DNA of 39,365 nt, from the IMG/VR virus record IMGVR_UViG_3300020383_000012, positions 1 to 39,365 of that record. One strand, written 5' to 3'. Positions 159-37,589 of the stretch are shown here, one piece after another. Source of the DNA: a virus. The translations under genes were made by a program, and so were the position numbers. The notes under the pieces are model-generated. The model was not told where the DNA came from and searched no databases. It was given only the letters and a program-made list of their open reading frames with translations. Within the stretch, counting starts at the first letter, position 1, and every line of letters begins with the position of its first letter.

Positions 159-578
159 TCATTCCTCGGTTCGCTCCCTGGCCTTAACCTTCCTCTCATC
201 CAGGAACACCTTAAACGCCTCCCTCCGTTTAGCCTCCCCCTTCCACGGTGGCCCCCCTTCGGGTTCCAGTTCCCTAACGAGTTTCTGCATGTGAAGTGCC
301 TCGATGACCCCGTGATAATAGGCCACTGCCCCCTCATTTTGGAGACACTCGACGTACCCACCTATCTCAATGTCTCCGGGAATACCCCGGTCATTATGCC
401 ACAGGAACACCCCGGGGGGGTCTCCTTCATTATGGCACTTCAGCGAAACGTGCGGGACTTGGGTATGCAATTCTTCAAAGAGCAGTCCGTGAACCATCCC
501 GTCTATTAGTTCGATAAGCGCCGCTACGGTCTTCCGGGTGGCTGCATCTTTTTCCTCTGTGGTCTGTACGTTTGCCAT
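159..578 (-). CDS. Hypothetical phage protein, 139 aa
   Basis: No family recognised. The start ATG at 578 has a clear ribosome site (AAGGAG, seven bases upstream), and directly before that lies one copy of the ACCGGGGGGG genome motif (593-602). The protein is soluble and acidic to neutral, with an N-terminal helix rich in Ala/Ile/Leu, a His/Trp-containing middle (around LWHNDRGIPGD) and a charged, Lys/Arg/Glu-rich C-terminus. A second motif copy (411-420) lies inside the gene and encodes Pro-Pro-Gly. It is last in a leftward run of small genes (1524 to 159), probably early or accessory in function. Confidence 0.7.
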   Translation of the reverse strand: MANVQTTEEKDAATRKTVAALIELIDGMVHGLLFEELHTQVPHVSLKCHNEGDPPGVFLWHNDRGIPGDIEIGGYVECLQNEGAVAYYHGVIEALHMQKLVRELEPEGGPPWKGEAKRREAFKVFLDERKVKARERTEE

Positions 579-613
579 ATCTCACTCCTTGTCCCCCCCG
601 GTTAATTGGTCCT

Positions 614-1105
614 CTAGCTAACTATTTTATTCCCCCCCACATTATCCCCGCTCCCACTATGGCTCTGCATCCACTCCGCCGCCTGCGCTGGAATCTCCAC
701 TTCTTCGTCGATTTCCATCCCATCGAGCAGGAGTTCGTCCACTATTTCCTCGACCACTTGGAGGACCACTTCTTCCTCAACGATGACCCCGTATGCCCTG
801 AGCAGCACAATGGAGGCACAGGAGGCGAAGGCTTGCATATCCTGCTGGGCCTGGATGATGTTCTGGAGTGAGGAGTCCCTGCTACCTCTGCACAGGTCTG
901 CTCTTTCGTAGTAGAACTTCAGTTTTTCCTCGTCTGTGTAAACTTTCTTGAGTTCGACCTTGGTGGTTATCCCCACGATGGGGTCTGTGCGTGTGGCCAG
1001 ATTGACTTTCGCGAGGTGTACGTCTGGTTCATCGGTGCTCTTGATATTCCTGACTTCGAGTCTGAACATGGCTTTGATGATGTCTGTTGATTGTGCTGAT
1101 TGCAT
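614..1105 (-). CDS. Hypothetical phage protein, 163 aa
   Basis: Unrecognised. The start at 1105 is set by a strong AAGGAGG ribosome site preceded by a copy of the ACCGGGGGGG motif (1120-1129), the same leader layout as the next gene at 578. The N-terminal half looks like a beta-rich domain (Phe-Arg-Leu-Glu-Val and Thr-Lys-Val-Glu-Leu stretches). A middle helix with Gln-rich and Ala-Ser-Cys-Ala segments follows, then a very acidic Val/Glu-rich helix (about residues 108-140). It probably forms one transcription unit with the 159-578 gene, since only 35 bases separate them. Confidence 0.7.
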   Translation of the reverse strand: MQSAQSTDIIKAMFRLEVRNIKSTDEPDVHLAKVNLATRTDPIVGITTKVELKKVYTDEEKLKFYYERADLCRGSRDSSLQNIIQAQQDMQAFASCASIVLLRAYGVIVEEEVVLQVVEEIVDELLLDGMEIDEEVEIPAQAAEWMQSHSGSGDNVGGNKIVS

Positions 1106-1166
1106 ACTTGCCTCCTTGTCCCCCCCGGTTGTTTATTGTAGATGCCCTGTGGCATTATTAAAAATG

Positions 1167-1231
1167 ACGGGGCACCTGACCTAATCCTTGGTTTGTTAAT
1201 TAATTAACGTTCGTTAACTTGGGTGCCCCGT
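1167..1231. promoter_or_regulatory. 10-bp inverted repeat enclosing a 14-bp palindrome
   Basis: ACGGGGCACC (1167-1176) pairs with GGTGCCCCGT (1222-1231). The loop contains the perfect 14-bp palindrome GTTAATTAATTAAC (1195-1208) and a further GTTAAC (1213-1218). It sits between two leftward genes (stop at 1258, start at 1105). Palindromes of this type are typical repressor operators; the outer arms could also form an RNA hairpin. No binding protein can be assigned, though the XRE protein at 31134-31388 is one candidate. Confidence 0.45.
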
Positions 1232-1257
1232 TATACTCGTCCCCCACCGGGGGGGTC

Positions 1258-1524
1258 TTACTTAGTGAGGAGTTCCCGTGGGTCCCCATATTTGGGGTAG
1301 CCATCCCGGGGGGGTCTTCTCTCGACGAAGACGGGTGTTTGCTCTCCGACCCACGCCCCGAGGGTGTTATATTCAAAAAATTCCACTGCCTCCTCATGGG
1401 TCATCCCGTCCTGGGTTAGTATCTCCAGGCACTTGTCATAATCGTATGCCGCGACGGGCTCATTGAACCCGTACCTGAGAGCTTCTCCAATAAATGCTTC
1501 TTCAAACCCCACCGCTAAGAGCAT
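1258..1524 (-). CDS. Conserved small phage protein of the GAWVGE type, 88 aa
   Basis: The sequence has the look of a small protein I recall from many phages and metagenomes: an N-terminal FEEAFIG segment, a DYDKCLEIL helix, GMTHEEAVEFFEYN and then GAWVGEQTPVFV. Its function is unknown. The start at 1524 has only a weak, distant ribosome site (AGGA about 12 bases upstream). The ACCGGGGGGG-type motif at 1305-1314 encodes Pro-Pro-Arg near the C-terminus, beyond the conserved part. Recognition is from memory of the motif pattern, not from a search. Confidence 0.75.
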   Translation of the reverse strand: MLLAVGFEEAFIGEALRYGFNEPVAAYDYDKCLEILTQDGMTHEEAVEFFEYNTLGAWVGEQTPVFVERRPPRDGYPKYGDPRELLTK

Positions 1525-1533
1525 GGCGGGGGT

Positions 1534-1939: not shown

Positions 1940-2341
1940 ATGGATGCTTCGCATCTATCTGTGGACTACAAATCTCTGTCCCGAACGGACTCCCGCGCTG
2001 TGGAGGCGCAGCGGGGTGAGGATTTGGCGGCGGAGGCTAAGAAGATTGCGATCAACTCCCGAATCGCTGAACACGCTATCTCCACGCTGCCTTCTGTCCA
2101 TACGATGCTGCACAATTCCTACTCGATAATCGACAGTGAGCTACGCCGATTGGGGCGGCAGTCCCACCGGGGGGGTCTTGACCGGGCCGACACTGCCCAG
2201 TTCGAGAAGTACGCTGCATCGTTGGTGCGTTTGGTGAAGATGGAGCATGAGGTACGGGACAACTCCAGCCTGGACGCGATGAGCGATAAGGAACTCACCG
2301 AAGAGGTGGTTAAGAAACTCCAGGAGAGCACTGATGGATGA
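1940..2341 (+). CDS. Candidate terminase small subunit, 133 aa
   Basis: First gene of the structural operon, three genes before the large terminase. It is almost wholly helical: an N-terminal Arg/Ala/Glu-rich part, then a long Leu/Val helix with SLVRLVKMEHEVRD and a C-terminal LDAMSDKEL segment. Phage small terminases often have this long oligomerisation helix followed by an LSDEEL-like motif, and this gene position is typical for TerS. No helix-turn-helix is obvious, so the call is inference. ATG 1940 was chosen; a TTG at 1898 would add 14 residues, and neither has a strong ribosome site. The gene overlaps the next by 8 bases. A motif copy (2166-2175) encodes Arg-Gly-Gly. Confidence 0.45.
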   Translation: MDASHLSVDYKSLSRTDSRAVEAQRGEDLAAEAKKIAINSRIAEHAISTLPSVHTMLHNSYSIIDSELRRLGRQSHRGGLDRADTAQFEKYAASLVRLVKMEHEVRDNSSLDAMSDKELTEEVVKKLQESTDG

Positions 2342-4824: not shown

Positions 4825-6748
4825 AAACGAATTATGGTGGCAGGCCCCCGACGGAGAACCCCACGAAGCACTCTTTGAGTATGTCGGGAGGCTGGTTGAA
4901 GACCAGAATTACCAGCATGACCTGAACACGGACCACTTCCAGCGGTATAATGATGCCGAATTAACCGACCTGACGCTTAGTGGGTACAGTAAACCGGCGT
5001 CTGCGGGGCGGCACAAGGTCACGTTGAATGTGGTTAAGTCCATGTGCGACACTGTGACCTCCGAGATTACCCAGAATAAACCCACGGCAACCTTCCTGAC
5101 CTCCGGGGGGGACTGGGCCCAACGCCGGAAAGCAGAATTACTGGACCGCTTTTGCCAGGGTCAGTTCTACGAGAGCAAGATTTACGAGGTGGCCCCGAAG
5201 GTCTTTAAGGATGCAGCGGTCTTTGGGACGGGGGTTATGAAGATTTACGAGTCCGAGGGGGACGTGAAGGTTGAGCGAATCTTCCCTGACGAGTTGATTG
5301 TGGACGATGAGGAGTGCCGGTACTCCTCCCCCCGGCAGGCGTTCCAGTTGAAGGTGGTCAACAAAGAGGTCCTTAAGGCGATGTACCCGGAGAAGGCGTC
5401 TGCGTTGGATTCAACGACAGGGGTGGAGACCAGCGAGGCACTGGAGAACCGCTTACTCGGGGAGAGTGACGAGCAGGTTCTCTGTCTGGAGGCGTGGCAT
5501 CTCCCGTCCTCTAAGGAGTCCGACGACGGGCGGCACAGCATCGCGGTGGCGGGGGGAACCCTGCTTGATGAGACCTATCACCGGGATTACTTCCCCTTTG
5601 TGACCCTGCACTGGTCCGACAGGTTGCTTGGATTCTGGGGCCAGGGTCTCGCTGAGATGCTAACGGGCATCCAAATCGAGATTAATACACTGCTTAAGAC
5701 CATCTCCGAGTCCATGCGGTTGGCCAAACCGAAGGTTTTCGTGGAGACCGGGTCGAAGATTACCAAGGCAAGCCTGAACAACGAGTTGTGGGGGGTTATC
5801 GAGTACACATCCCCGGGGAAACCACCCCAGTTCTACGTCCCGAAAATCATGGCGGGGGAGGTCTACTCCCACCTGGACAGGCTCTTTGAACGGGCGTATC
5901 AGATAGCCGGTATCTCGGAAATGTCGGCTCAGTCGAAGAAGCCGGTGGGGATTGAGTCTGCGGTGGCTCTGCGGGAGTTCTCGGACATCCAGACCAAGCG
6001 GTTCTATGACATCGCCGCCCGGTACGAGAACCTCTTTATCCATGCCGCCGTCCAGATGATAGACATCGCCCGGGAAGCAGCGGAGCGGGACGAGGCTTAC
6101 GAGGTGGTCTCCCACGGGGACAAGTATATTGAGAAGATTAAGTGGAAGGACATCAACCTCGACAAAGACGCCTATGTGATGAAGGTGACCCCGACCAACA
6201 TGCTGCCGAACACCCCTGCCGGGAAGCTGGAGTTTGTCCGGGAGCTGCTTGAGTCCGGGCTGATTCAGGACCCGATGATTGCGCTTTCCCTGCTCCAGTA
6301 CCCCGATATTGAGGCAGCGACTCGTCCGATGACCGCTTCTAGCGACATTGTGGATATGTTCATTTCGGAGATGCTCGACAAGGGGAGTTACCAGTCCCCC
6401 GAGCCCTATATGGACCTCTCCCTGGCTGTCCAGAAGACTCAGTCGGCATACATGGTGGCGCGAATCAACAAAGCCCCGGAAGACCGACTGCGGCTCCTCG
6501 TTAGGTTCATGCAGGAAGTGATGGAGTTATTGGCGTCGATGGAGATGGCGTCCAATCAGGAGCAGATGATGGGCGTACAACCGGGGGGGCCTCTTGCTGG
6601 TGGTGAAGGGACACCGCCGCCAGCCGGGATGGAAGGGGCTCCCCCACCCCCACCAGGAATTGAGCAGATTTTGGGTGAATCAATGGACGCACCACCAGCC
6701 GGTGGTCCGCCCGTAACAGGAGGGGCTCCGATGGGCCCGATGCAATAG
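4811..6748 (+). CDS. Portal protein (head-tail connector)
   Basis: 645 aa, the ring protein through which DNA enters and leaves the capsid. Position after the large terminase, length and the sequence pattern (an N-terminal segment with aromatic residues, long helices around residues 250-400 with ALREFSDIQTKRF, and a helical wing/barrel region before the tail) fit podovirus-type portals. The last roughly 60 residues are Pro/Gly-rich and probably disordered. Two motif copies lie inside (5102-5111 giving Ser-Gly-Gly, 6580-6589 giving Pro-Gly-Gly), the second within the disordered tail. The start ATG at 4811 lies within the previous gene. Confidence 0.93.
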   Translation: MYNAKNELWWQAPDGEPHEALFEYVGRLVEDQNYQHDLNTDHFQRYNDAELTDLTLSGYSKPASAGRHKVTLNVVKSMCDTVTSEITQNKPTATFLTSGGDWAQRRKAELLDRFCQGQFYESKIYEVAPKVFKDAAVFGTGVMKIYESEGDVKVERIFPDELIVDDEECRYSSPRQAFQLKVVNKEVLKAMYPEKASALDSTTGVETSEALENRLLGESDEQVLCLEAWHLPSSKESDDGRHSIAVAGGTLLDETYHRDYFPFVTLHWSDRLLGFWGQGLAEMLTGIQIEINTLLKTISESMRLAKPKVFVETGSKITKASLNNELWGVIEYTSPGKPPQFYVPKIMAGEVYSHLDRLFERAYQIAGISEMSAQSKKPVGIESAVALREFSDIQTKRFYDIAARYENLFIHAAVQMIDIAREAAERDEAYEVVSHGDKYIEKIKWKDINLDKDAYVMKVTPTNMLPNTPAGKLEFVRELLESGLIQDPMIALSLLQYPDIEAATRPMTASSDIVDMFISEMLDKGSYQSPEPYMDLSLAVQKTQSAYMVARINKAPEDRLRLLVRFMQEVMELLASMEMASNQEQMMGVQPGGPLAGGEGTPPPAGMEGAPPPPPGIEQILGESMDAPPAGGPPVTGGAPMGPMQ

Positions 6749-6757: not shown

Positions 6758-7717
6758 ATGGCATCAGCAGCAGACGTGCAGGAGACCGCTTCGGCACTGG
6801 CTGAATTGGCAGCAGTTAAAATGGAGAATGGGGAGGTGGCTGTGGCAGCAGAGGCCCCCCCGGTTACTCCTGAATTGGCAGAAGCAGAATCCCCCCCGGT
6901 GGAGGAGTCGGGGCCCGAGCCTATGGCGTTCCGTCCGGCTATCCCGACAGCGGAGTCCAAGGAGTTCCAGGAATTAGCTCGGCGGGAACGTGCTGTCCGG
7001 GAGCAGACCGACCAGAACAAGCAAATGCAGCAGGAGTTGGCAGAGCTTCGGGGTGAGATTCGTGCTGGGAAGGGAATAAATGAGGGCGATTTACGGGAGC
7101 AGGCCCGAAAAGACCCACTGGAGTTCATTAAAAAGTACGGATTATCCTACGATGACTTGACCAATACGGTGCTTAACGGAGAGAAAGCGCCGCCGGATTT
7201 GGAATTGCGTCATGAAATCGGGCAACTTCGGGAGGAGTTGAGTTCGATTAAAGAAGCGAAAAATGCGGAAATTGTGGCGCAGAAAGAGACTTCTGAGGCG
7301 CAGGCGTACGACAAATTCATTGACGAAGTCCACCAGTTCGTAGAAACTAATGCTGATGAATACGAATTAGTAAGGCTCCAGGGAGCGCAGCAACTTGTAG
7401 GTGACGTAATTAGGGAAACCTTTAGCGCCACTCAACGAGTCCTGCCATACCAGGAGGCTTGCCAAATCGTCGAGGACCACCTCGAACAGCAAGTCCGTAA
7501 TTCTATGCGGTCAAGAAAGCTCCGAACAGCAGCGCCACCTATTGAGTCGGTCACTCCAGCAGCGGAACCCAAAGTTTCCACTAGACCAAAAACCCTGACG
7601 AATGAAAACACCGCTAGTCCAGCCTCTGTGCCGGATTCTGGCAGTTCGCTCGCGTCACGGGATGAATCACTCGAAAATTTGGCGTCTTCTATGAATTTCT
7701 GGGGTACTTCCGCATAG
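6758..7717 (+). CDS. Capsid scaffolding protein
   Basis: 319 aa lying between portal and major capsid genes, where scaffolds belong. It is acidic and mainly helical: an Ala/Pro/Glu-rich disordered N-terminus (1-70), a coiled-coil region with ERAVREQTDQNKQMQQELAE and ELRHEIGQLREELSSIKEAK, and a C-terminal Ser/Thr/Pro-rich tail. A good AGGAGA site precedes ATG 6758. Two copies of the genome motif in C-rich orientation, 26 bases apart (6855-6864 and 6891-6900), encode Ala-Pro-Pro-Val and Ser-Pro-Pro-Val in the disordered N-terminus. No protease gene is adjacent, so the scaffold probably leaves the head intact. Confidence 0.8.
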   Translation: MASAADVQETASALAELAAVKMENGEVAVAAEAPPVTPELAEAESPPVEESGPEPMAFRPAIPTAESKEFQELARRERAVREQTDQNKQMQQELAELRGEIRAGKGINEGDLREQARKDPLEFIKKYGLSYDDLTNTVLNGEKAPPDLELRHEIGQLREELSSIKEAKNAEIVAQKETSEAQAYDKFIDEVHQFVETNADEYELVRLQGAQQLVGDVIRETFSATQRVLPYQEACQIVEDHLEQQVRNSMRSRKLRTAAPPIESVTPAAEPKVSTRPKTLTNENTASPASVPDSGSSLASRDESLENLASSMNFWGTSA

Positions 7718-9011: not shown

Positions 9012-9069
9012 TTGACGGGTCTCTTACCGGGGGGGGATTCAGGTCCCTCCCCATAAAGCGAGGTGAATA

Positions 9070-9965: not shown

Positions 9966-10811
9966 ATGGCGCAGACGAAAGGCGGAGGTGCTTCGACCAC
10001 GACCTTTAGTCGGTCAGTTGACCCAATCAAGAAGATTGCAGAGGTCAACTTCGACGCTGTGACTGACGGTAGCACTCCCTTGACGACCGAGGATTGGTTG
10101 GAGAAGGTTTTCTACCCGTTTATTCCTGCGGAGTTGACGTTCGATAGCATCCCCTACCAGGAGAAGGGGAAGAACACGAACACCGTGACTCTCGGGGGCA
10201 ACGTGATTCCCCGCGACGAGAATGACCTTAGTGCTTGGCAGTTGAAGGAGGGGAACAACCTCATCAACACATACACCTCCCCGACAAACCCAACGCCGCC
10301 ATCCACGGTGAAGCAGTACTGGTCAGAGCCCAACTATGCAGTGACGCAGGACCAGACGCTTAAAATCTTCCTCACGGTTGGGAACAACGGGACTCAGCAG
10401 ACGCTGGAGAAAGAGCGGGATATTAGCTTCTATTACCCAACGTATTATGCGGTGGGGCCTGCCGGGATTACGGAGGCCAATCAAGCCCAGCTTAAACCGG
10501 GGGGGGCCTCTAGCGACGGGCAAGCTATAAAGGCGTCCCAGGTTAGTTCGCACTCGTTCACTACCAACAATGACTACATCTACATCGCCTATCCTAGCGG
10601 GACGGGCTACTCTCCGTTGACCAATGCTATCGAGCCCATATCCGCACAAAACTACAGGTCTGCTCTTGAGTTTGTAAAACCGGACGGAACTCTCTCCAGC
10701 ACGGCAGTGACGCAAGAGTTCCAGTTCGCAGACAGCTCGACTCACGACTACTATGTGTACCGCTGGAAAACGACAAACTCACCTATGACTTTCACACTCG
10801 AACTCTCGTAA
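9966..10811 (+). CDS. Tail-fibre-like structural protein, 281 aa
   Basis: The ATG at 9966 was chosen because GGAGGGG lies nine bases before it; an earlier ATG at 9921 is buried in the previous gene. The C-terminal half has the pattern of a beta-rich domain frequent in phage fibre and neck-appendage proteins: an SHSFTTNNDYIYIAYPSGTG segment (a strand entering an aromatic turn), then LEFVKPDGTLS and a final HDYYVYRWKTTNSP strand. The middle part (VTVGNNG-like, ERDISFYYPTYYAVGPAGIT) looks Ig-like. It probably builds the fibre complex with the LamG protein encoded just downstream. A motif copy (10496-10506) encodes Pro-Gly-Gly. Confidence 0.6.
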   Translation: MAQTKGGGASTTTFSRSVDPIKKIAEVNFDAVTDGSTPLTTEDWLEKVFYPFIPAELTFDSIPYQEKGKNTNTVTLGGNVIPRDENDLSAWQLKEGNNLINTYTSPTNPTPPSTVKQYWSEPNYAVTQDQTLKIFLTVGNNGTQQTLEKERDISFYYPTYYAVGPAGITEANQAQLKPGGASSDGQAIKASQVSSHSFTTNNDYIYIAYPSGTGYSPLTNAIEPISAQNYRSALEFVKPDGTLSSTAVTQEFQFADSSTHDYYVYRWKTTNSPMTFTLELS

Positions 10812-14065: not shown

Positions 14066-14952
14066 ACACGACGACCCTATCTCAGTTAATCACCCGGATT
14101 CGTGAACGTGCGGACATGGTAGGGTCCAGCTTCGTGTCTGACCGTGAGGTTACGCACATGATTAACCAGTCGGTGGCGGACCTGCATAGCCTGTTGGTCA
14201 CTCTCTATGAGAGTTACTATGTGAAGGAAGCCCCCGATATTGCCCTGCCAGCGGGGAATCCAAGTGAGGTGCCCGAGGATTTCTATAAACTCCTGGGCGC
14301 AGACTTCACCACCGGGGGGGCTACTTATACCCTAAAGCCATTCATGTTCAGCGAGCGACGGGCTTACTCGACACCATTCTATGCCAATACCTCCCTCCCG
14401 AACATTTTCTACCAACTCCAAGGTGACCAGATTAGGTTTATCCCGGATACCACGGTCTCCGGGACGGTAAAGCTCTGGTATGTCCCCGAGCCGAGCGTGT
14501 TCCTGGACTTCTCCGAGGGGACTGCTTATCAGTCAGGCGACGACATCGAGGGGCTTGGGACCAACTGGACGAGTGACTTTGTGGGGGCAACCATTACCTG
14601 GGCTACAGGTGAGACCGGGGTGGTGTTAAGCGTTGCCGGTAGCGGGGAGGCTGTCGTAGACACTAACCAGACCGTCGCATGGGGCCCGTTCACCGTGTCC
14701 AACGTGAGCACTCCAATTAACGCAGTGGACCGAGAGATTGCCCGAGGCTACGAGGAATACATCATCCTCGACGGGACGATTAAGTGTCTCATGAAGGAAG
14801 AGTCCGACGTGAAGATGCACGTTGCGCTCCGGGAGAAAGTCGAAGAGACCATCCGGGCCAACGCTGCAACAAGGAGCCCCGGTGACCCGTACCGGATTAC
14901 CGACACCAGCACAGGGACACTACAGGCCAATTATGTAAACTGGGCGAGATAA
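14062..14952 (+). CDS. Head-tail adaptor protein
   Basis: 296 aa. The N-terminus (TLSQLITRIRERADMVGSSF, then VSDREVTHMINQSVADLHSL) is the typical four-helix start of podovirus adaptor/gatekeeper proteins that bind under the portal. A beta-rich domain follows, with an inserted module at about residues 153-220 (GLGTNWTSDFVGATITWATG), a small barrel seen in tail proteins. The C-terminal helix (EEYIILDGTIKCLMKEESDV) returns to the core fold. It is coupled to the lipoprotein gene by an ATGA overlap and to the next gene by TAATG. A motif copy (14311-14320) encodes Thr-Thr-Gly-Gly. Confidence 0.78.
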   Translation: MNTTTLSQLITRIRERADMVGSSFVSDREVTHMINQSVADLHSLLVTLYESYYVKEAPDIALPAGNPSEVPEDFYKLLGADFTTGGATYTLKPFMFSERRAYSTPFYANTSLPNIFYQLQGDQIRFIPDTTVSGTVKLWYVPEPSVFLDFSEGTAYQSGDDIEGLGTNWTSDFVGATITWATGETGVVLSVAGSGEAVVDTNQTVAWGPFTVSNVSTPINAVDREIARGYEEYIILDGTIKCLMKEESDVKMHVALREKVEETIRANAATRSPGDPYRITDTSTGTLQANYVNWAR

Positions 14953-26675: not shown

Positions 26676-26893
26676 CCAGGTTGGGCAGGGACCTATTTAG
26701 AGATAAAGCCTCTTCAGTAGATCAACCGTTCCTGCTCAACCTGGGCATAAACAAAGAGGGGGCCTTTGCCTCCGCAATGACCCGCCTCACCGGGGGGGAG
26801 AATTGGGAGATTGGGCTCGAAGGGGGCATCGAGAAACCATTCGATGCAGCGATGGACTGGGAAATCAGCAGTTTTGTCAGGGGGACGTGGTAA
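26651..26893 (+). CDS. Hypothetical 80-aa protein, possible frameshift extension
   Basis: The only in-frame start is TTG 26651, with GGTGG close upstream but no good ribosome site; it overlaps the holin-like gene by 25 bases. The protein looks soluble (LTRLGRDLFRDKASSVDQPF, then GAFASAMTRLTGGENW). Poor initiation together with the A10 slippery run just upstream suggests it may be made as a -1 frameshift tail of the holin-like protein. The motif at 26789-26798 encodes Leu-Thr-Gly-Gly. Its stop forms a TAATG overlap with the next frame. Confidence 0.5.
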   Translation: MARQQAELTRLGRDLFRDKASSVDQPFLLNLGINKEGAFASAMTRLTGGENWEIGLEGGIEKPFDAAMDWEISSFVRGTW

Positions 26894-27544: not shown

Positions 27545-27601
27545 TTGCGCTTCCGTGCGGTCTCCTATACCTACCGCTCATACACTTTTATGGAGATTCA
27601 C
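27545..27601 (+). promoter_or_regulatory. Weak promoter and shared leader before the recombination operon
   Basis: TTGCGC (27545-27550) and TATACC (27566-27571) are separated by 15 bases, a poor sigma70-like pair. Just downstream lies ACACTTTTAT (27581-27590) followed by GGAGATTCAC and ATG 27602. The same ACACTTTTAT-GGAG leader precedes the starts at 37714 and, on the minus strand, 39176. Confidence 0.4.
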
Positions 27602-28558
27602 ATGGAACTGATACCTTTGGGCTCGACAGAGCAGAACGCCATTATGGGCACAAACACCTACGCCGGACCGTGGGATGTCTTCTCACGGAGGGCATATCCG
27701 CAGGACGACGAGGACAAGCCGCACCTGAGAATGGGCAGAATGATTGAGCCTTTCCTCATCAAGGCCGCGCTGTCTTTTCTTGACCCCGAGTGGCTGGTGC
27801 TTCTCGGAATGGACCCCGCATTTGTTAAGACGTGGACGTGGAAACCCGGCAAATCTGAGTTCGTGGACATCACCAAGGACGGCATCACCTGTCCCCTGCG
27901 CTCCACTTGTGACGGCAAAATCGTGGCGAGCCCCCGACACCAGCGACCGCTGATGCTCATCGAGGCGAAGTTGGTAATCTACTCGGACAGTGACCTCTGG
28001 AGTTACCCCCTCTCAGCGCAGCAGATGCACCCGGACACCCTCCGGGAGTCGGTCATCCCCCAGATGTATTACGACCAAGCGCAGTCTCACCTCATGAGAT
28101 TCCCCGATGTGCAGGTCTGCCTGCTGCCGGTGCTGTTTAACTACACCTCCAAGCCGGAGGTGTATTACGTCGCCCGGAACAACGAGCGGATTGCCGAGAT
28201 GCAGAAAGCCTGTTGGGAGTTCTGGGTTGCTCACATTGTCGGAGAGGCCCCCCCGGTGAGCGATGCGAGCAAGGGAATGACTCAATACCTCGCACTTCAG
28301 GAGGCGACGAACGAGATGTACGCTCCTGCAACTGACCGAGCTATTGACCTGATGGAAGCCTTTTACAAAACGAAGGACGAACAGGTTGCAGTTGACAGCA
28401 AACTTGATGGTATCACCAACGAGTTGAAGAAGATGGTGGTGGACACCGGGGGGTGGGGACTTGCCTTCGGGGACAGCCGCCTCAATTACAAGCCGAATAA
28501 AAATGGACAGAGACGACTCTCTACGAAAGGACTGCGACGTGACTGCTTTATCAAATAA
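27602..28558 (+). CDS. YqaJ/RecE-like exonuclease (PD-(D/E)XK)
   Basis: 318 aa. ATG 27602 was chosen for the GGAG nine bases upstream. Family features: STEQNAIMGTN near the N-terminus, HLRMGRMIEPF (about 41-51), CDGK with the metal-binding Asp near 104, IEAK (120-123) with the Glu-x-Lys of the nuclease core, and YYDQAQSHLM, the usual Gln motif. These enzymes degrade the 5' strand of DNA ends so that the partner annealing protein, encoded next, can load. Together they form the phage recombination pair. A motif copy at 28248-28257 encodes Ala-Pro-Pro-Val. Confidence 0.8.
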   Translation: MELIPLGSTEQNAIMGTNTYAGPWDVFSRRAYPQDDEDKPHLRMGRMIEPFLIKAALSFLDPEWLVLLGMDPAFVKTWTWKPGKSEFVDITKDGITCPLRSTCDGKIVASPRHQRPLMLIEAKLVIYSDSDLWSYPLSAQQMHPDTLRESVIPQMYYDQAQSHLMRFPDVQVCLLPVLFNYTSKPEVYYVARNNERIAEMQKACWEFWVAHIVGEAPPVSDASKGMTQYLALQEATNEMYAPATDRAIDLMEAFYKTKDEQVAVDSKLDGITNELKKMVVDTGGWGLAFGDSRLNYKPNKNGQRRLSTKGLRRDCFIK

Positions 28559-29351
28559 CCTCCCTGTTTTCGACATTGCCATCTTCGAGCAAATGAAACC
28601 CTTTGCGGAGTACCTCGCCGGGAGCATGACAATCCCCCAGCGGTATCAGAAGAAACCGGCTGACATTGTGACTGCCTTCCTAAAGGGGCAGGAGCTGGGG
28701 CTCGCACCCATCGCCTCCCTCGAAGCGTTCAACATGATTCAAGGGACAAGCTGCCTCACAGCAGACTTCTTCCTCGCCCTGATTCAGGCGCACCCCGCCT
28801 ACGATGGGCATGAGGAGATGACCTTCTCCAAGATTGAGGAGGCAGGCAAAGCGGTCTGCACCTTTATCCGCAAGGGCAAGCGGTACACACGGGAGTTCTC
28901 CATCAAGGATGCCCAGCGACGGGGGCACTGGGGGAAGCGGGGCCCGTGGTCCACCGACCCGTGGCGGATGCTGCAAATCCGGGCGCGGACCTTTGCCGGG
29001 AGGGATGCGTTCTCCGATGCCCTCAAAGGATTCACCACCGAGGACGAGGTCCGGGACATCCACGAACTCAAAGCTGCGGAGACCAGCCAGCCGACAGGCA
29101 CCACCCGGGTGGAACAGGTTGCAGCACTCACCACCGGGGGGGATGACCCCAAGGTAGTGGAGGGGGAATTTGAGGTTGCAGTGAAAGCCTCGAAGCCTGC
29201 TGACGACAAGCGGCACCGGGAGCCAGTGGCTAAGAAACCGCCAGCAAAGAAGGCACCTGCCAAGAAACCATCCACAAAAAAGGCACCGGCAAAACCCCGG
29301 AGCACCGAGCAGGCGAACCTCCTCCCGCCTCCGGGGAAGGGTCTGGCGTGA
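28539..29351 (+). CDS. RecT-like single-strand annealing protein with lysine-rich tail
   Basis: 270 aa from GTG 28539, chosen for the AAAGGA site eight bases before; an ATG at 28503 would add 12 residues. The N-terminal half has the RecT/Bet-type pattern: PADIVTAFLKGQELGLAPI, then LEAFNMIQGTSCLTADFFLA, as in phage annealing proteins that bind resected ends. An Arg-rich WRMLQIRARTFAGRDAF helix follows. The last roughly 50 residues are Lys/Ala/Pro repeats (AKKPPAKKAPAKKPSTKKAP) like a histone H1 tail, unusual on a RecT protein. It overlaps the exonuclease by 20 bases and the prim-pol by GTGA. A motif copy at 29133-29142 encodes Thr-Thr-Gly-Gly. Confidence 0.78.
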   Translation: MTALSNNLPVFDIAIFEQMKPFAEYLAGSMTIPQRYQKKPADIVTAFLKGQELGLAPIASLEAFNMIQGTSCLTADFFLALIQAHPAYDGHEEMTFSKIEEAGKAVCTFIRKGKRYTREFSIKDAQRRGHWGKRGPWSTDPWRMLQIRARTFAGRDAFSDALKGFTTEDEVRDIHELKAAETSQPTGTTRVEQVAALTTGGDDPKVVEGEFEVAVKASKPADDKRHREPVAKKPPAKKAPAKKPSTKKAPAKPRSTEQANLLPPPGKGLA

Positions 29352-30235
29352 AGACCCCCTATCCAGACGGGTTAATGGGGAAGTGGGCCAAGTGGTACTT
29401 TGAACAGGGGTGGCCTGTGTTCCCCATTTGGCCCACCGCTCATGAGGGGGACCAGTGGCTCGACCACTGCTCCTGCCGCAACGGGCCCCGCTGCCCCGAC
29501 CCCTGTAAGCACCCCAGGATTGGAGACTATCTGGGGAAAATTACAGGGCTGGATGTGGACCTCGCCTGGAACATGAACCCCACCAGCGTGATTGGTATCA
29601 GGTGTGACTCGCTCACCGTGATTGATCTTGACGGAGCGGCAGGCATCGAAGCCTTTCGTGAACTCAGGGAGAGTCACGGTGCGCCCCCCCCAAAGACACC
29701 AACTGTCTTCACCGGGGGGGGCGGTTTCCACCTCTACTTCAGAGGGCTCTCAGGCGTCCGCAACAAGGTCGAGTTGGTGAAGGGGGTCGATGTCCGGGCT
29801 CAGGGCGGCTACGTCATAGCGCCGCCCTCACGGACTCTCAAGGGGGGTTACCACTGGATGGAGGGCAGGGAACCGTGGACTCTCCCCCTGGCTCCCCTCC
29901 CCGAGTGGCTGGCGGGGCTTCTGGTGGAGCCGGTCGAGGACAAAAGCCCCCCCGGTGTCCGGGAACACTGCGAGCCTTGGGAACCAAATTTAGGGGCCTT
30001 CAAAGAAATCTTCGAGGGGGCCAGGAACGACGGGTTGGTTCGAGTCTGCGGGAGCCTCTTCAACGCCTATTCGGGGCGGGATGCCCTGCCCTACTACGAG
30101 GTGGCGGGGCAGGTGGAGAAGGCCATGCGAATCGTAAACGAGGAGAAGGTGCGCCCCCCAGTGGACCACCGGGAGATTGCCTCAATTGTGCAGAAAATGG
30201 TGAAACGAAATGAACGCAAACGATGCCAAGCTTGA
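29348..30235 (+). CDS. Bifunctional primase-polymerase (Prim-Pol)
   Basis: 295 aa, GTG start in a GTGA overlap. The N-terminal AEP-type domain shows WPVFPIWP, a Cys cluster with HCSCRNGPRCPDPCKHPR, VIDLDG (Asp93, Asp95 as metal ligands), TGGGGFHLYF with His128, and GVDVRAQGGYVIAPPS. The C-terminus (RNDGLVRVCGSLFNAYSG and the DHREIASIVQKM helix) fits a PriCT-like domain. It should make primers and possibly extend DNA; it is the only polymerase-like enzyme seen in the genome. Motif copies at 29711-29721 (within the active-site GGGG) and 29947-29956. Confidence 0.87.
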   Translation: MKTPYPDGLMGKWAKWYFEQGWPVFPIWPTAHEGDQWLDHCSCRNGPRCPDPCKHPRIGDYLGKITGLDVDLAWNMNPTSVIGIRCDSLTVIDLDGAAGIEAFRELRESHGAPPPKTPTVFTGGGGFHLYFRGLSGVRNKVELVKGVDVRAQGGYVIAPPSRTLKGGYHWMEGREPWTLPLAPLPEWLAGLLVEPVEDKSPPGVREHCEPWEPNLGAFKEIFEGARNDGLVRVCGSLFNAYSGRDALPYYEVAGQVEKAMRIVNEEKVRPPVDHREIASIVQKMVKRNERKRCQA

Positions 30236-30771: not shown

Positions 30772-31345
30772 TCCCGATGTCCCCCTGGAGCGGGTCGAGC
30801 ACTCGAAGCTCGCACGGACCTTACGAAACCTTGGCCTGTTCTGGATTCACGTCCCGAACGAGGGCAAGCGGTCAGTGATTCAGGGGGCCCGACTTAGAAA
30901 TTTAGGGATGCTAAAGGGTGTGAGCGACTTCATTATTTTCGACCCGACTCCCCGGGGGGGTTATGTAGGGGTCGCAATAGAGATGAAGCGCATCAAGCAC
31001 TCATCAACGAGTGAGGAACAGATTGAGTTCCTCCAAAAGATGGCCGCTCGGGGATACCTGGCGGTGATTACAAAAGGACACGCCGCCGCAGAAGAAGTGT
31101 TAAGGCGTGTCGGATTTTTAGAAGGAGTACCAAATGCCTGTAGTGAAGAAATCAACAATCGCATCAGACAGATTGACGAAGTATGCAAGTCGCAGAGGGA
31201 TGACCCAGGAGAAGCTAGCCTTGATTTTGGGGGTCACGCAGGAGACAATCTCCCGCTGGATGAGCGGCAGCTCGACGCCCCGACTGGAGATGGCAGTGCG
31301 AATCCAAGACCTGACGAAACGGGTGCACCCAAAGGACTGGTTTAA
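30677..31345 (+). CDS. VRR-NUC domain nuclease
   Basis: 222 aa from ATG 30677, chosen for GGAGG nine bases upstream. After a basic leader (PPKPRKKRKS) comes a VRR-NUC fold: HSKLARTLRNLGLFWIHVPN, GMLKGVSDFIIF (Asp84), AIEMKR (Glu102, Lys104) and EEQIEFLQKM (Gln115). These PD-(D/E)XK-type enzymes include stand-alone phage nucleases that act on branched DNA. The domain ends at about residue 148; the remaining 74 residues are low in order and overlap the XRE gene in another frame. The motif at 30951-30960 encodes Pro-Arg-Gly-Gly inside the domain. Confidence 0.8.
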   Translation: MEEGKSAVKQALERYYKTQEPPKPRKKRKSTNPDVPLERVEHSKLARTLRNLGLFWIHVPNEGKRSVIQGARLRNLGMLKGVSDFIIFDPTPRGGYVGVAIEMKRIKHSSTSEEQIEFLQKMAARGYLAVITKGHAAAEEVLRRVGFLEGVPNACSEEINNRIRQIDEVCKSQRDDPGEASLDFGGHAGDNLPLDERQLDAPTGDGSANPRPDETGAPKGLV

Positions 31346-31388
31346 AGATGTCGTTGCGAAGGAACCAAAAAGTGCTCGAAGACCTTGA
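31134..31388 (+). CDS. XRE-family helix-turn-helix regulator, 84 aa
   Basis: Strong AAGGAG site before ATG 31134. Residues about 12-60 form a Cro/CI-type HTH: ASRRGMTQEKLALILGVTQE (helices 1-2) and the recognition helix TISRWMSGSSTPRLEM. The short C-terminus (HPKDWFKDV) is typical of phage XRE proteins. It could control the early promoters with GTATAC elements or the palindromic sites near 1195 and 1620; binding is not shown. It shares 212 bases with the VRR-NUC frame and 41 with the next gene. No integrase is present, so a role in switching expression is more likely than lysogeny. Confidence 0.85.
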   Translation: MPVVKKSTIASDRLTKYASRRGMTQEKLALILGVTQETISRWMSGSSTPRLEMAVRIQDLTKRVHPKDWFKDVVAKEPKSARRP

Positions 31389-31545: not shown

Positions 31546-32066
31546 CTTTTAAACCGGGCCTTCTGCTCTGCGCTTAGGTGCTCCTCTGCGAAGGCTATCA
31601 TTTTATCCACCTGCCCCACCCGCATCTCTGCCCATTCGTGCAGCTCCCCGTCCTCATGATTAAGGAACTTCTCGATTCCCTCCCGGAGTTGCCACGGGGA
31701 GATGTCGGGAACCTCGGTGCACTCCTTTGTGATGTCGAAGGTCCCCACCGCCAGTTGATACTGTGCCTCCAGGAAGTCAAAATCCCGGCGAGCCTTCAGA
31801 GCCCGACAGACGCGAATAACCGGGTCGTCCTCGTCCAATGGACCGGGGGGGAGGTCGTTGCCCTTGTGGACTGCGTCTGCCTGCATTTGGAGGTTCACTC
31901 TGTCCTGGAACTCCTCGTCGTCTGCGGGGGTCTGTTTGGTCAGGCACCTGCGGCAATCCCGGAGGGTGGACTGCCCCTGGAACTGGGTATAGTGCCATTT
32001 GTGCTCAAATATCCGGCAGATGAGCAGGTTGGGGGCGTTGAAGAGCCAGAGTAGTAGGGCTTTCAT
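31542..32066 (-). CDS. Hypothetical protein with Cys/His N-terminus, 174 aa
   Basis: AAAGGAG lies seven bases before the ATG at 32066. The N-terminal 45 residues (LICRIFEHKWHYTQFQGQ, then CRRC) resemble small phage zinc-binding proteins with an HxW...CxxC pattern. The remainder is acidic and helical (DEDDPVIRVCRALKARRDFD, and ELHEWAEMRVGQVDKMIAFA). Function unknown. It is the last gene of a leftward early-type operon (33643 to 31542). A motif copy (31842-31851) encodes Pro-Pro-Gly. Confidence 0.7.
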   Translation of the reverse strand: MKALLLWLFNAPNLLICRIFEHKWHYTQFQGQSTLRDCRRCLTKQTPADDEEFQDRVNLQMQADAVHKGNDLPPGPLDEDDPVIRVCRALKARRDFDFLEAQYQLAVGTFDITKECTEVPDISPWQLREGIEKFLNHEDGELHEWAEMRVGQVDKMIAFAEEHLSAEQKARFKS

Positions 32067-32423: not shown

Positions 32424-32941
32424 TGCTGGGAATCCCCCCCCGGTGGTGTTGGCACGTCCCACGGAATCTCCCCGATGATGAGGTTTAGGTAGTCCACCGG
32501 GGGGGTGCACTCGTCCCACTCGGTCCAGTCGGGGTGGCCTTCCATTGGGAGCACCCAGAAATCTTCGGCGCAGGTGTCAAAGGTGGCCTCTGTATAGGTT
32601 ATGCCCACTTCCCGGAAGAATAGCTTGAGGGCCTTTTCTGCGGTGTCTTCGGGGATTGCCCATTGGATGCGGTGGAACCCCTCATCCCGGGGGAAGATGC
32701 CCCAGACGAACCCGAACGCCTTGCCGCACTCGTCGCAGAGGGTTTCGTCTGCCAGCTCCGAGAGGCGGTAGTCCTCGCATTGCATGCAGAAGGTCTCCCC
32801 CCGGTCCTCCTGCTCCCGCTTGGCGTGGTTGTTCCCTGGGCGGCAGCTCTCACAGTCGAGGGCTCCGCATAGGCATGGACCCTGGACGCTGTACTTCCGG
32901 CCCGAGGCGTCTTCGTAGGTTTCGGTGTTTCGGTATCTCAT
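32420..32941 (-). CDS. Zinc-ribbon-rich hypothetical protein, 173 aa
   Basis: CAGGAG seven bases before the ATG at 32941 decides the start; an upstream ATG at 32974 is inside the previous gene. Several Cys pairs (CLCGALDCESC, FCMQCEDY, LCDECGKAFG) predict zinc-binding ribbons in the first 80 residues. The C-terminal half is acidic and aromatic (DTCAEDFWVLPMEGHPDW). Two motif copies overlap its 3' end (32434-32444 and 32496-32505), encoding Pro-Pro-Gly-Gly and Pro-Pro-Val. No function assignable. Confidence 0.7.
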   Translation of the reverse strand: MRYRNTETYEDASGRKYSVQGPCLCGALDCESCRPGNNHAKREQEDRGETFCMQCEDYRLSELADETLCDECGKAFGFVWGIFPRDEGFHRIQWAIPEDTAEKALKLFFREVGITYTEATFDTCAEDFWVLPMEGHPDWTEWDECTPPVDYLNLIIGEIPWDVPTPPGGDSQQ

Positions 32942-33263: not shown

Positions 33264-33322
33264 GTGATGTCTCCTTGTTAACCGGGGGGGTGCTGCTTAT
33301 TCAGCAGTGTACTGGTTAGGGG

Positions 33323-33643: not shown

Positions 33644-33696
33644 CAGATACTTCCTCATTTAATTTTGGGGATTGCTCCCGTTTCTGCTACCGGGGT

Positions 33697-33885: not shown

Positions 33886-33891
33886 TCCCCA

Positions 33892-35469
33892 TCACCGGGG
33901 TTGCCAGTTTGGGTCGTCCTCCTCGATACCGACCCCCCACTCCTCCACAGGCCGGAGGGCAATCGAGAAGAATTTACGCCTGCCGCCACCCTTGGAAGTC
34001 TCCCGAACAAGCCCCATCATCTCCAAATCCTTAAAGAATTTCTGCCCCGAGCCGACACTGCGGATCCCCAGGGCTTGGCAGTACCGGACATAGGCGCGGT
34101 ACAAGGTGTGCTGATACTCCCACCAGGCGCAATCAACCCCCCGGGGGGGCTGGCTACAGCATGCGTCAACAAAGGCAGTGGCGGAACTCGACCGAACCTC
34201 CAGCTCATCGACCGCTCGCTTGTGCTCCTCAGTCAGCGTGTAATCCCCGGCCTCCATCAGCCGTGCAGCAGCATGGAGGCACCGGACCCTAATCTCGGAG
34301 GCAACAGGCCGGAGTAAATCCAGAATCTCCTCCTTCGACTTCCGGTCAGCGTCATCGAGGAACGAATGGTTAAAGTCCTGGATGAGCAACCGGCGCTTCA
34401 ACCCCCCGGATAGGTCCCTCATCGCCGGGAGCCTATTAACCGCCAGCAGGTGGCCCGTTGTCGGGAGCATTTTGTAAGCTTGGGCGTACTTCACATCAAC
34501 GTGCACCGGGTCACCGGCAACGATAGCCTTCACCCGGTGCGAGTGAAACACTTTCTCTTCCGGCAGCTCCGTCACAATGTTCAGCAGCTTCCCGTCCAGA
34601 GTCGAGGCACCGAACCCCTCCCAGTCGGCTGGGCTACAGGTTGAGATAAGCGAGGAGTCAGCGACTACCAAGGTGGCGATTACCTCCGCCAGCATCGACT
34701 TCCCGTTCGCCCCAGACGCTCCCTGCCATATCAGCATCCGCTGGAACCTCGTCGCTGTGGAGGTCAGCACGGTGCCAATAAACCCCTCCAATATCTCCAC
34801 CTTCGCGTCAAATTCGGGGTCCTCCTTCCAGATTGTGCGGAGGTACGCCTGCCATGCCGCAGCCCGGGGGGGTTTGAGGACTTGCTCGGCGTCGATTGCT
34901 TGCGCTTTGATGTCCGCCCCAAAGAGCAGGTGCCGTTTCCGGTGCTGAGGCTCGGGGTCTGTCAGCGACACCGTCCCATCAGCGTGAGGTTCCCAGAGCA
35001 GAGGGATAGTCTCCCCCTGGTCGATGGTCGGTAGGATAATCCCCGGGGTCTCCTCCTGGAAGAACCGCTGCTTGGCAATCCTGGTGCGGCGGTGCGGTTG
35101 CCGGTCTAAGGCGGATTCGAGCTTCGCAGAGAGGCGCAGGAGCGTCTGCCGGGGGGCGGCGTTTTTGGGGAAGGTCCAGACCTTCAGTTCGGAGAGCAGA
35201 GACCAAAGGTCACCGAAGTTGGGGTAACCTTCCCGGGGGGTAGCAGGGTTGCAGCAGCGTGACCAAATACCGAAGTCAGCATCCCAAATCCACAAGGAAC
35301 CCTCAGCGAACACCGGGGGGTTGCCTGTTGCCTCCTCGATGCCTGCGCAGATGGCGTCGAACAGTCGGGGCTCTTCGTCCCGGGTTACTTGGTGTTTGTC
35401 GATGTGCGCTTGTGCTGCAATGCGGATTGCGTCGAGGACCGAGTGCTTCTCCCACCAATGACTGTGCAT
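33892..35469 (-). CDS. D5/P4-type SF3 replicative helicase
   Basis: 525 aa. The C-terminal half is an SF3 AAA+ helicase: Walker A GASGANGKS (250-258), Walker B LLNIVTELPE (about 295-304), sensor-type GHLLAVNRLP (Asn345) and a GGLKRRLLIQDF Arg-finger segment (355-366). The N-terminal part matches the D5_N-like helical domain found before such helicases. A winged-helix-like end follows (SGQKFFKDLEMMGLVRE). It should unwind DNA for prim-pol. Its gene starts beside the AT-rich iteron region, the best origin candidate. Ribosome site AAGGAAA. Motif copies at 34140-34149 and 34863-34872. Confidence 0.92.
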   Translation of the reverse strand: MHSHWWEKHSVLDAIRIAAQAHIDKHQVTRDEEPRLFDAICAGIEEATGNPPVFAEGSLWIWDADFGIWSRCCNPATPREGYPNFGDLWSLLSELKVWTFPKNAAPRQTLLRLSAKLESALDRQPHRRTRIAKQRFFQEETPGIILPTIDQGETIPLLWEPHADGTVSLTDPEPQHRKRHLLFGADIKAQAIDAEQVLKPPRAAAWQAYLRTIWKEDPEFDAKVEILEGFIGTVLTSTATRFQRMLIWQGASGANGKSMLAEVIATLVVADSSLISTCSPADWEGFGASTLDGKLLNIVTELPEEKVFHSHRVKAIVAGDPVHVDVKYAQAYKMLPTTGHLLAVNRLPAMRDLSGGLKRRLLIQDFNHSFLDDADRKSKEEILDLLRPVASEIRVRCLHAAARLMEAGDYTLTEEHKRAVDELEVRSSSATAFVDACCSQPPRGVDCAWWEYQHTLYRAYVRYCQALGIRSVGSGQKFFKDLEMMGLVRETSKGGGRRKFFSIALRPVEEWGVGIEEDDPNWQPR

Positions 35470-35589
35470 GCGTGGCTTTCCTTTTCTCGTTATTTTTTCC
35501 CCCCCGGTGGGGGCTAGTGACGATGGGGGTCTTATCGGATCCCCGGGACGAGGATCAAATATATCTCAGAGTACAGGTGTACGCTCAAC

Positions 35590-35870: not shown

Positions 35871-35985
35871 CACAATCGTTCAGTTAACGTACCCCCTAGG
35901 CAATTTTTTGCGTCTGGGGAGGACCGAACGGGGTGTGACGATTACAAAGGAGGATCCTGGGGCCTGTTTTGGTCCTGGGGTCCTC

Positions 35986-36060: not shown

Positions 36061-36148
36061 ATTTCGGGGTCGGGTGGCCTTAACCGGGGGGTTGCTTCTC
36101 CTGGCCCGGGGCGGGTGCGCTTTCCGGGTGCGCGGGAAAAGTACGCCG

Positions 36149-36214
36149 CGAAAAGAAAAGCGATTAATGGGTATACAGTCCACTCATAACAGGGTAAGCG
36201 TGGTGAACACTTTT
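36149..36214 (+). promoter_or_regulatory. Early promoter and leader for the 36232 operon
   Basis: TATACA (36172-36177, within GTATACA) is a good -10 with an A/G-rich CGAAAA 17 bases upstream as a poor -35. AACACTTTT (36206-36214) lies 35 bases after GTATAC. The region GCGAAAAGAAAAGCGATTAA before it is closely similar to the promoter at 37633-37660, so the two genes are probably co-regulated. Confidence 0.55.
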
Positions 36215-36231
36215 AACCGCAAGGATAAATC

Positions 36232-36801
36232 ATGGTAACGAAAATTACGGAAAGCAGATACAGCGAGGCGCGCAGCTCTTACGAGGGTTGGTGCGTCGAG
36301 TGTTTAGAATTTACCCGGAGTCAAACCGAGCCCGATGCTCAGGACTACGATTGCCCCCAGTGTGAAGAAAATACGGTTATTGGAGCGGAAAACCTTCTTT
36401 GGATGGATGAAATCGCGATAGTCCCGGACGATTCCCCCCCCGGTGGTGGGATTCTAATGGGTATGGTGCTGGAAACCGCTATTACCGCTGCAATGATGTC
36501 GCGGGTTCTCTCGGTTGAGACTGGGGAGCGGTTGCTTGGAATCCACGGGGCAGTCTGTCACGATATATGGTGCGGCGGTTGCGGGGGTATTTTGGACACT
36601 TGGCAATCTGTACTGGTCACACCAAAAACAGCGGACCCTCTATACTCGGGGAGCTTTGTGCGTTGCGGGGATTGTTTTGACTCGAAAGCAGAGGGCGAAA
36701 TCTCTCCCAAATCCCCGCTGCATGAATTGGGGGCGGGTTTCATTGTCACCGATTTCCGAGACTACGGGCCCGATTTTCGGCTAAAGGGGGTGGCGTCATG
36801 A
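36232..36801 (+). CDS. Zinc-ribbon early protein, 189 aa
   Basis: AAGGAT precedes ATG 36232. The N-terminal 60 residues (SYEGWCVECLEFTRSQTEPD, CPQCEENTVIGAENLL) match a small zinc-ribbon protein common in phages, of unknown function. A second segment (about 75-189) contains its own Cys pairs (CGGCGGILD and RCGDCFDS). The two parts are joined at SPPGGG, encoded exactly by the genome motif copy at 36434-36444. The gene ends in an ATGA overlap with the next. Confidence 0.72.
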   Translation: MVTKITESRYSEARSSYEGWCVECLEFTRSQTEPDAQDYDCPQCEENTVIGAENLLWMDEIAIVPDDSPPGGGILMGMVLETAITAAMMSRVLSVETGERLLGIHGAVCHDIWCGGCGGILDTWQSVLVTPKTADPLYSGSFVRCGDCFDSKAEGEISPKSPLHELGAGFIVTDFRDYGPDFRLKGVAS

Positions 36802-37037
36802 GCAGTACAAGCAATCACTTCCTTGTCTTTGTCAGGTCCGGCAACCATACGAAACCCTTATGGGCCTATGATAATCGTAAAGCGGCGGAAGAGCATCGCG
36901 ATTTTATTCTGGGGCATGGGATACTAGAACCCGACGCAGACGGTATTTTACGTCAATTTGTTCAGAACTGTTTTGTTAGAGAGTCAAGCATGGTCGTTCG
37001 TTCCAAATTTAACCCCAACGAGGAGGTGGAGTCGTGA
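36798..37037 (+). CDS. Small hypothetical early protein, 79 aa
   Basis: Coupled by an ATGA overlap at its start and GTGA at its end. A beta-helix-beta pattern is suggested (NHFLVFVRSG, RKAAEEHRDFIL, FVQNCFVRESSMVVRSKF). No family recognised. Base composition of this stretch is noticeably less GC-rich than the structural genes. Confidence 0.65.
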   Translation: MSSTSNHFLVFVRSGNHTKPLWAYDNRKAAEEHRDFILGHGILEPDADGILRQFVQNCFVRESSMVVRSKFNPNEEVES

Positions 37038-37516
37038 GTAGTGACAAAGAAAGAAAGTTCCAGCGTCAATGCGACGCTTTTATAGACAGGGAGCTAGTCT
37101 ATCGGGCAAGCACCCTCTTTTATGAGCTAGGGCGGTTGCCTAACTTCACACTTGTTGATTGCGACTGGTCTGACGAGTTTATTAATCTAACCTTCCCCGC
37201 TTTGGAAAATTGCGGTTGCGATATGGATGAAGAGGAAAAGGCCAAAGCATTAGAGGACGAGGAGCCTCTTGAATCTTGCGGGGATTGTCAGCGGGAGATT
37301 TTTGAACAGTGGATTGTTACCCGATATTTTGGGGAGTGCCTGAAAGAGCGCGGGGAAGTGGTGGAGGAGTTTATGGGCCTCCTGGTCTGGGGACGTACCA
37401 CGACCGGGCAATCTGTCTCTCTTGACGGTGTAGTGCGGGATATTGTTGAGTGGTATCACCAAAAGGATGAGATGAGTGGAGAGGAACTGGCTAGGATAAT
37501 CCACGCAGGGGAGTAG
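37034..37516 (+). CDS. Hypothetical acidic early protein, 160 aa
   Basis: GTG start at 37034 with a strong GAGGAGGTGGAG ribosome site and GTGA overlap. The protein is acidic, with Cys residues in NCGCDMDEEEK and SCGDCQREIF that may bind metal, and helices around FYELGRLPNF and VSLDGVVRDIVEWYH. Function unknown. The TAG stop lies in the first GTAGTCT heptamer, and an intrinsic terminator follows. Confidence 0.65.
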   Translation: MSSDKERKFQRQCDAFIDRELVYRASTLFYELGRLPNFTLVDCDWSDEFINLTFPALENCGCDMDEEEKAKALEDEEPLESCGDCQREIFEQWIVTRYFGECLKERGEVVEEFMGLLVWGRTTTGQSVSLDGVVRDIVEWYHQKDEMSGEELARIIHAGE

Positions 37517-37545
37517 TCTGTAGTCTGTAGTCTCTTAAGTAGTCT
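37513..37545 (+). repeat. GTAGTCT heptamer repeats
   Basis: Three perfect tandem copies (37513-37519, 37520-37526, 37527-37533) and a fourth at 37539-37545. The same heptamer occurs at 35706-35712 and 36021-36027 in the candidate origin. It covers the stop codon of the preceding gene and leads directly to the terminator. Confidence 0.8.
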
Positions 37546-37550
37546 GGAGA

Positions 37551-37589
37551 ATCCCCCCCGGTGGCATGGCGTCACCGGGGGGGATTTTT
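37551..37589 (+). terminator. Intrinsic terminator built from an inverted pair of the genome motif
   Basis: AATCCCCCCCGGTG (37551-37564) pairs perfectly with CACCGGGGGGGATT (37573-37586) over 14 bp with an 8-base loop, followed by TTTTTG on the plus strand. This ends the 36232-37516 operon. Both arms are complete copies of the dispersed 10-mer in opposite orientation, the same arrangement as uptake-sequence terminators in Neisseria and Haemophilus. Confidence 0.9.

Follow-up and report, generated by a model that had tools for sequence, protein, structure and literature searches.

The virus genome IMGVR_UViG_3300020383_000012 of the IMG/VR database, a record of 39,365 bases that was analysed over its whole length and is called here the window, carries a G-rich word, (A)CCGGGGGGG, about once per kb on both strands, and selection has led the phage to accumulate this word as a recognition mark in its DNA. 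The 9-mer CCGGGGGGG occurs 37 times (24 copies on the plus strand and 13 on the minus strand), much as a preliminary description of this DNA had estimated by eye, and in 28 of the 37 an A at the first position completes the 10-mer ACCGGGGGGG (ACCG7; 15 plus and 13 minus). The sites span positions 412 to 37583 with a mean spacing of 1,032 bases and a density of 0.94 per kb, and they are spaced barely more evenly than random (P = 0.053).

The mark exceeds chance and is sharply defined

Sequences simulated with Markov models of orders 1-4 contained on average 2.0-5.6 copies of the 9-mer (maximum 12) and 0.4-1.4 copies of the 10-mer (maximum 5), against the 37 and 28 observed; under the order-3 model the observed-to-expected ratio (O/E) of the mark is about 8-25. 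The chance expectation of about one 9-mer given in the preliminary description was too low, and its proposal of a genome-wide non-random mark stands, since even the higher expectations lie far under the observed counts. When synonymous codons were shuffled in a way that preserves every protein and the codon usage, 3.9 +/- 1.9 copies (maximum 11) were left in open reading frames (ORFs), where 29 are observed. The same word read backward, used as a control, does not occur at all.

The word is all-or-none at CC plus seven G, with A favoured at the first position, because single-base variants of the 10-mer are found at only 0-5 copies each, near the background. CC stands directly before 37 of the 46 runs of at least seven G (the total had been put at 43, and the number preceded by CC correctly at 37), and the share rises from 12/119 for G5 and 14/38 for G6 to 31/38 for G7 and 6/7 for G8, so the CC prefix is specific to long G runs. 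With only one run of G7, the mark cannot fold into an intramolecular quadruplex, and its predicted structure as a single strand is negligible. A search of the open literature for the word gave nothing relevant among the matches listed.

Selection acts on the mark as DNA

Genes were assigned from ORF lists by ORF length and homology, by which a few sites could shift. So assigned, 27 of the 37 sites lie inside ORFs, and 10 lie between genes, where 3.3 would be expected (P about 0.001), a three-fold enrichment. The overlaps with ORFs are 14 sense and 15 antisense (two sites each fall in two overlapping ORFs), and all reading frames are used. Since both strands and all frames carry the mark, sense and antisense are equal and sites are enriched between genes, selection acts on it as DNA; the preliminary description had argued in the same way against a peptide, and the synonymous shuffle bears this out.

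Relatives keep the mark while its positions turn over

The mark is also borne by L009 (TerL 96% identical), L010 (93-94%) and L043 (capsid 81%), in which the 9-mer was counted 9, 1 and 14 times, respectively. Compared at 72-91% DNA identity, relatives keep mark sites more often than other 9-mers. In the aligned DNA of L009, 7 of 8 sites are kept, against 0.44-0.51 for other 9-mers (one-sided binomial 0.03), and in that of L043 4 of 9 sites are intact and one further site has gone from G8 to G7, against a background of about 0.1 (one-sided binomial 0.002 with the G8-to-G7 case counted as kept). Four sites of the window are missing from the aligned DNA of L043 and four of L043 are missing from the window; where a copy was lost, substitutions and not insertions account for the difference, and the same sites were found in independent metagenomes. 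Because retention is above background and copies are gained and lost by substitution, the density of the mark is held while its positions turn over. Free drift of the sites in relatives, which the preliminary description had set as a test of its proposal, is thus not what the alignments indicate. The 10-mer, whose presence in related phages the same description had left to be counted, is absent from some 75 further relatives whose capsids are at most 67% identical and from some 25 picked up through TerL; on these comparisons the mark is confined to the clade of the window.

A sister lineage carries a different mark

Two records from one metagenome, L042 and L044, which may derive from a single virus or from close kin, are 61% identical to the window in the portal and 74-75% in the capsid. 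ACCG7 is absent in both. GGTGTYTG accounts for the strongest dispersed words in each record by itself, and pooled the two contain 34 copies of this word in 30 kb against 3.8 expected, or about 1.1 per kb. The sister mark extends to KGGTGTYTGM, its single-base variants occur at 0-7 copies, and its copies lie on both strands and within genes. Both marks are asymmetric and G-rich, and their letters are unrelated. Two close lineages thus each have a sharp mark, at equal density and in different letters, something that a reader of the window alone could not have seen.

Neither word is in excess in L164 (capsid 67%, 10.6 kb). The relatives G529 and G530 (L259-L262) have a word of another sort, GGTTAGCTC / GAGCTAACC, with 8-10 copies, mostly in one orientation and in one region often near ATG starts, which has the look of a promoter or a signal for the start of translation.

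Gene content and position of the sites

Profile and homology scans identified in the window TerL, a P22/SU10-like portal and an SU10-like capsid protein and adaptor; it also codes for a protein of tail-fibre type that contains a chaperone domain and for a peptidase of family M15. The replication and recombination set comprises RecE-like, RecT-like and Prim-Pol proteins, a DUF5906/P4-type helicase and a weak VRR-NUC match (Table 1). No integrase was found, and no methyltransferase recognised, among the window proteins scanned.

The VRR-NUC ORF (30581-31345) and the start of the ORF of a small helix-turn-helix (HTH) protein (31134-31388) overlap by more than 200 bases in different frames; since homologues of the HTH ORF exist in relatives, either the VRR-NUC ORF has been given the wrong extent or the two genuinely overlap. 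A tandem array of GGCTCGG / GGCTGGCTCA units occupies both ends of the window (1-71 and 39271-39365), with a 52-base stretch in common, and the contig therefore probably joins there into a circle; the array could be an iteron-type origin. Another short tandem array, of GATGTAGTCCAAAGTAGTCT units, lies at 35985-36061 between divergent genes.

Table 1. Copies of the mark and genes discussed in the text, in window coordinates; the letter before CCG7 is the base that precedes the 9-mer
Feature	Position	Strand	Context or match	Relatives
CCCGGGGGGG (9-mer CCG7)	412..420	+	in ORF 159-578(-)	
ACCG7	593..602	-	intergenic	
ACCG7	1120..1129	-	intergenic	
ACCG7	1246..1255	+	intergenic	
CCCG7	1306..1314	+		
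ACCG7	2166..2175	+	intergenic	kept in L009
TCCG7	5103..5111	+	portal gene	kept in L009 and L010
ACCG7	6580..6589	+	portal gene	kept in L009 and L043
ACCG7	6855..6864	-		kept in L009 and L043
ACCG7	6891..6900	-		kept in L009, absent in L043
ACCG7	9026..9035	+	directly after capsid gene	kept in L009 and L043
ACCG7	10496..10505	+		
TCCG7	13638..13646	+		
ACCG7	14311..14320	+		kept in L009, absent in L043
TCCG7	15708..15716	+		absent in L009 and L043
ACCG7	16996..17005	-		kept in L043
TCCG7	19224..19232	+		absent in L043 through synonymous differences only (SGGDP in both)
ACCG7	20892..20901	-		kept in L043
ACCG7	23138..23147	+		
ACCG7	24528..24537	-		
ACCG7	25348..25357	+		
ACCG7	26789..26798	+	intergenic	
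ACCG7	28248..28257	-		
ACCG7	29133..29142	+		
ACCG7	29711..29720	+		
ACCG7	29947..29956	-		
CCCG7	30952..30960	+		
ACCG7	31842..31851	+	antisense to its ORF	
ACCG7	32435..32444	-		
ACCG7	32496..32505	+		
ACCG7	33281..33290	+	intergenic	
CCCG7	34141..34149	+	DUF5906 helicase gene	
CCCG7	34864..34872	+	DUF5906 helicase gene	
ACCG7	35499..35508	-	intergenic	
ACCG7	36435..36444	-		
ACCG7	37553..37562	-	intergenic	
ACCG7	37574..37583	+	intergenic	
RecE-like exonuclease	27545..28558	+	PHROG 434, E 3.6e-19	40% identity to L044 homologue
RecT-like single-strand annealing protein	28461..29351	+	PHROG 561, E 5.2e-31	
Prim-Pol (PF09250)	29348..30235	+	E 2.7e-30; candidate site reader if the reader is phage-encoded	42% identity to L044
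Small HTH protein (Xre-type by similarity)	31134..31388	+	candidate DNA binder if the sites are regulatory	homologue in L044
DUF5906 / P4-type primase C-terminal helicase	33892..35469	-		

A proposed Chi-like role of the mark and the search for its host

The mark is probably a signal at which some DNA-processing enzyme lands or stops. Chi, one of the parallels named in the preliminary description, is the best available one. The explanation that we favour, tentatively and by analogy, is that the mark works like Chi and is read by an AddAB- or RecBCD-type helicase-nuclease of an unsampled host. Such a translocating enzyme would enter at an end of the phage DNA or at a broken fork, read the G-rich strand, cease degradation at the mark and pass the end to recombination. 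Every added site would give slight extra protection or recombination, so both strands could be covered without fixed positions, and sister phages with different marks would reflect different hosts with different Chi words. The RecE-like exonuclease of the window is a possible reader or beneficiary of the mark. We infer the step from mark to enzyme here, as we do equally for a phage-encoded reader. A Chi-like role would explain the G-richness and asymmetry of the word, its tolerance of position, its stepwise gain and the differing words of the sisters.

Lambdoid phages over-represent Chi (O/E about 2.4-3.1, at 0.2 per kb), as do phages that encode a recombinase and have no known RecBCD inhibitor (PMC3784561). 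Like Chi in those phages, the mark is a short asymmetric G-rich word found on both strands of a recombinase-encoding phage, over-represented beyond composition; unlike it, the word is not a known Chi, has nine to ten exact letters, is spread genome-wide and exceeds Chi both in O/E and in density.

Several observations weigh against a Chi-like role. Chi in E. coli phages is about five-fold sparser than the mark, whose very high density is left unexplained, as are the markless relatives: the same search in over a dozen long related phage genomes gave no mark of comparable strength. The hosts of these unmarked relatives presumably have Chi words too. No concentration of sites toward one region was seen along the window, and the strand polarity typical of Chi was not found beyond base composition, the 24:13 ratio of the sites being equal to the 219:123 ratio of G5 to C5 (P = 1.0). 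Bacterial chromosomes show such polarity, but a phage may have no need of it. In IMG/VR, two pair scans, each of which should by our estimate detect roughly one in four complete phages with the mark, revealed no other virus bearing it. Finally, a scan of the genomes of 84,980 prokaryotic species for pairs of ACCG7 copies within some 30 bases gave no credible host in which the mark reaches a density like that of Chi; by our estimate, a host that carries one copy per 5 kb would very likely have been caught if present in that collection, and one outside it would not. The scan returned 85 stretches, almost all single, and the 58 genomes behind them in which copies were counted contain at most 96 of ACCG7, with the exception of Methanogenium cariaci (499). 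That the mark matches a repeat of the host itself, as the preliminary description had suggested, thus found no counterpart in a prokaryotic genome of comparable density, that one probable artefact aside. Because the scan gave no credible host genome enriched in the word and the sites show no polarity beyond composition, we do not file the mark as Chi, and we assign it neither to HIP1 nor to uptake sequences; over-represented recombination words in phages are as such already known.

M. cariaci was rejected as the host. Its G7 runs are in excess in any context (496 G7 against 41 G6 and 109 G5 in 160 kb), and in strain JCM 10550 (L156-L163, L077, L090, L092) G7 occurs at about 3-5 per kb and G4-G6 are scarce, an excess unique among the 199 Methanomicrobiales genomes drawn. 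The continuity of reading frames across G7 is 0.49, against 0.64-0.67 across G3 or G4, and repeated long G-run words have been reported in three unrelated archaea, all of them JCM strains (PMC8044849). For these reasons the runs probably arose as an artefact when some JCM drafts were sequenced or assembled. The M15-type peptidase of the window suggests a host with peptidoglycan, which also makes M. cariaci less likely. Planctomycetota were rejected too, since a genome there holds at most 69-70 copies, a density about 50 times lower than that of the phage. In the planctomycete genomes G390, G429, G440 and G505 the 10-mer has 39-70 copies, 5- to 20-fold over the reversed control, and is per kb some 50-fold or more rarer than in the phage. 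A TerL profile run over 347 genomes of the phylum of G499 (titled Acidobacteriota metagenome-assembled genome, MAG) and 398 of the phylum of G479 (titled Magnetococcales MAG) found no relative in either, a result that is uninformative.

Other readers and other functions

The mark might instead be read by a replication or recombination protein of the phage, as an initiation site of Prim-Pol (in lagging-strand or restart priming) or as a loading site of the helicase or of RecE/RecT, with a module of other specificity in the sister lineage. We consider this, the main rival of a Chi-like reading, rather unlikely, although the restriction of the mark to one phage lineage, and the failure to find its counterpart in a host, would follow from it. 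Both marked lineages encode RecE, RecT, Prim-Pol and VRR-NUC, with only 38-44% identity between the homologues, and about one site per kb would suit priming on the Okazaki scale. There is also a precedent, the Prim-Pol of phage NrS-1, which requires an 8-nt template word and is likewise accompanied by a superfamily-III-type helicase (PMC7102993). However, the word of NrS-1 occurs just twice in its genome, against 37 copies here, Prim-Pol and helicase are separate genes in the window and their recognition of the mark is putative, and the Prim-Pol of the window has no match at the sequence level to any solved Prim-Pol. Moreover, Prim-Pol homologues occur in G539, G542 and G544, relatives without the mark, and in G539 and G544 together with RecT, which weakens the simple idea of a Prim-Pol reader; Prim-Pol or RecT as the sole determinant of the mark was rejected on this ground. 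More doubtful still is the fuller proposal of a host-independent, Chi-like self-mark, a self-encoded word of 8-10 letters placed genome-wide at one per kb and read by the phage's own machinery, for which the sister lineages would have switched word and reader together.

A phage that copied a non-Chi word of its host, whether HIP1-like (methylation or mismatch repair), for chromosome polarity or for DNA uptake, seems improbable. HIP1 of cyanobacteria does occur about once per kb and is swapped for other words in exceptional strains, resembling the word swap between the sisters, but it is a palindromic word of cellular genomes linked to a methyltransferase (PMC4390886), whereas the mark is asymmetric, ACCGGGGGGG not being self-complementary, and stands in a phage whose scanned proteins include no recognised methyltransferase. 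Against such copying, too, the two sister lineages bear unrelated words, and the host scan found no genome enriched in the word, which leaves the uptake role named in the preliminary description with no evidence. Binding sites of a phage repressor or regulator, or start-associated sequences, are harder still to reconcile with the data. The HTH protein and the enrichment between genes are consistent with them, and the stoperators of L5-like phages and the start-associated sequences of Cluster K mycobacteriophages are, like the mark, phage-specific short genome-wide repeats, rare in the host (PMC3203893). Those repeats, however, are tied to regulation or to gene starts and to one orientation relative to transcription, whereas the mark is mostly intragenic, lies in either orientation, is no closer to gene borders than random points, and looks quite different from the start-associated word of G529 and G530. 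That composition, poly-G mutation bias, use in peptides, insertion of a mobile repeat or assembly error gave rise to the mark is scarcely credible, for all that a G-rich word in a G-rich genome might invite such a reading: composition, mutation bias and peptide use are rejected on the Markov, reversed-word and synonymous-shuffle controls, repeat insertion is rejected on the substitutions at lost sites, and the recurrence of the same sites in independent metagenomes speaks against error.

Implications

What is new here is the different mark KGGTGTYTGM in the sister records L042 and L044. If the marks are Chi-like, a phage genome would disclose the recombination word of an unsequenced host and its sister phages a second one, and such marks could serve to pair uncultured phages with their hosts. 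If the reader is encoded by the phage, the word would be a genome-wide viral self-mark, for which we found no close precedent here. Either way, the two sister lineages offer a natural experiment in the genome-wide swap of a dispersed recognition word.

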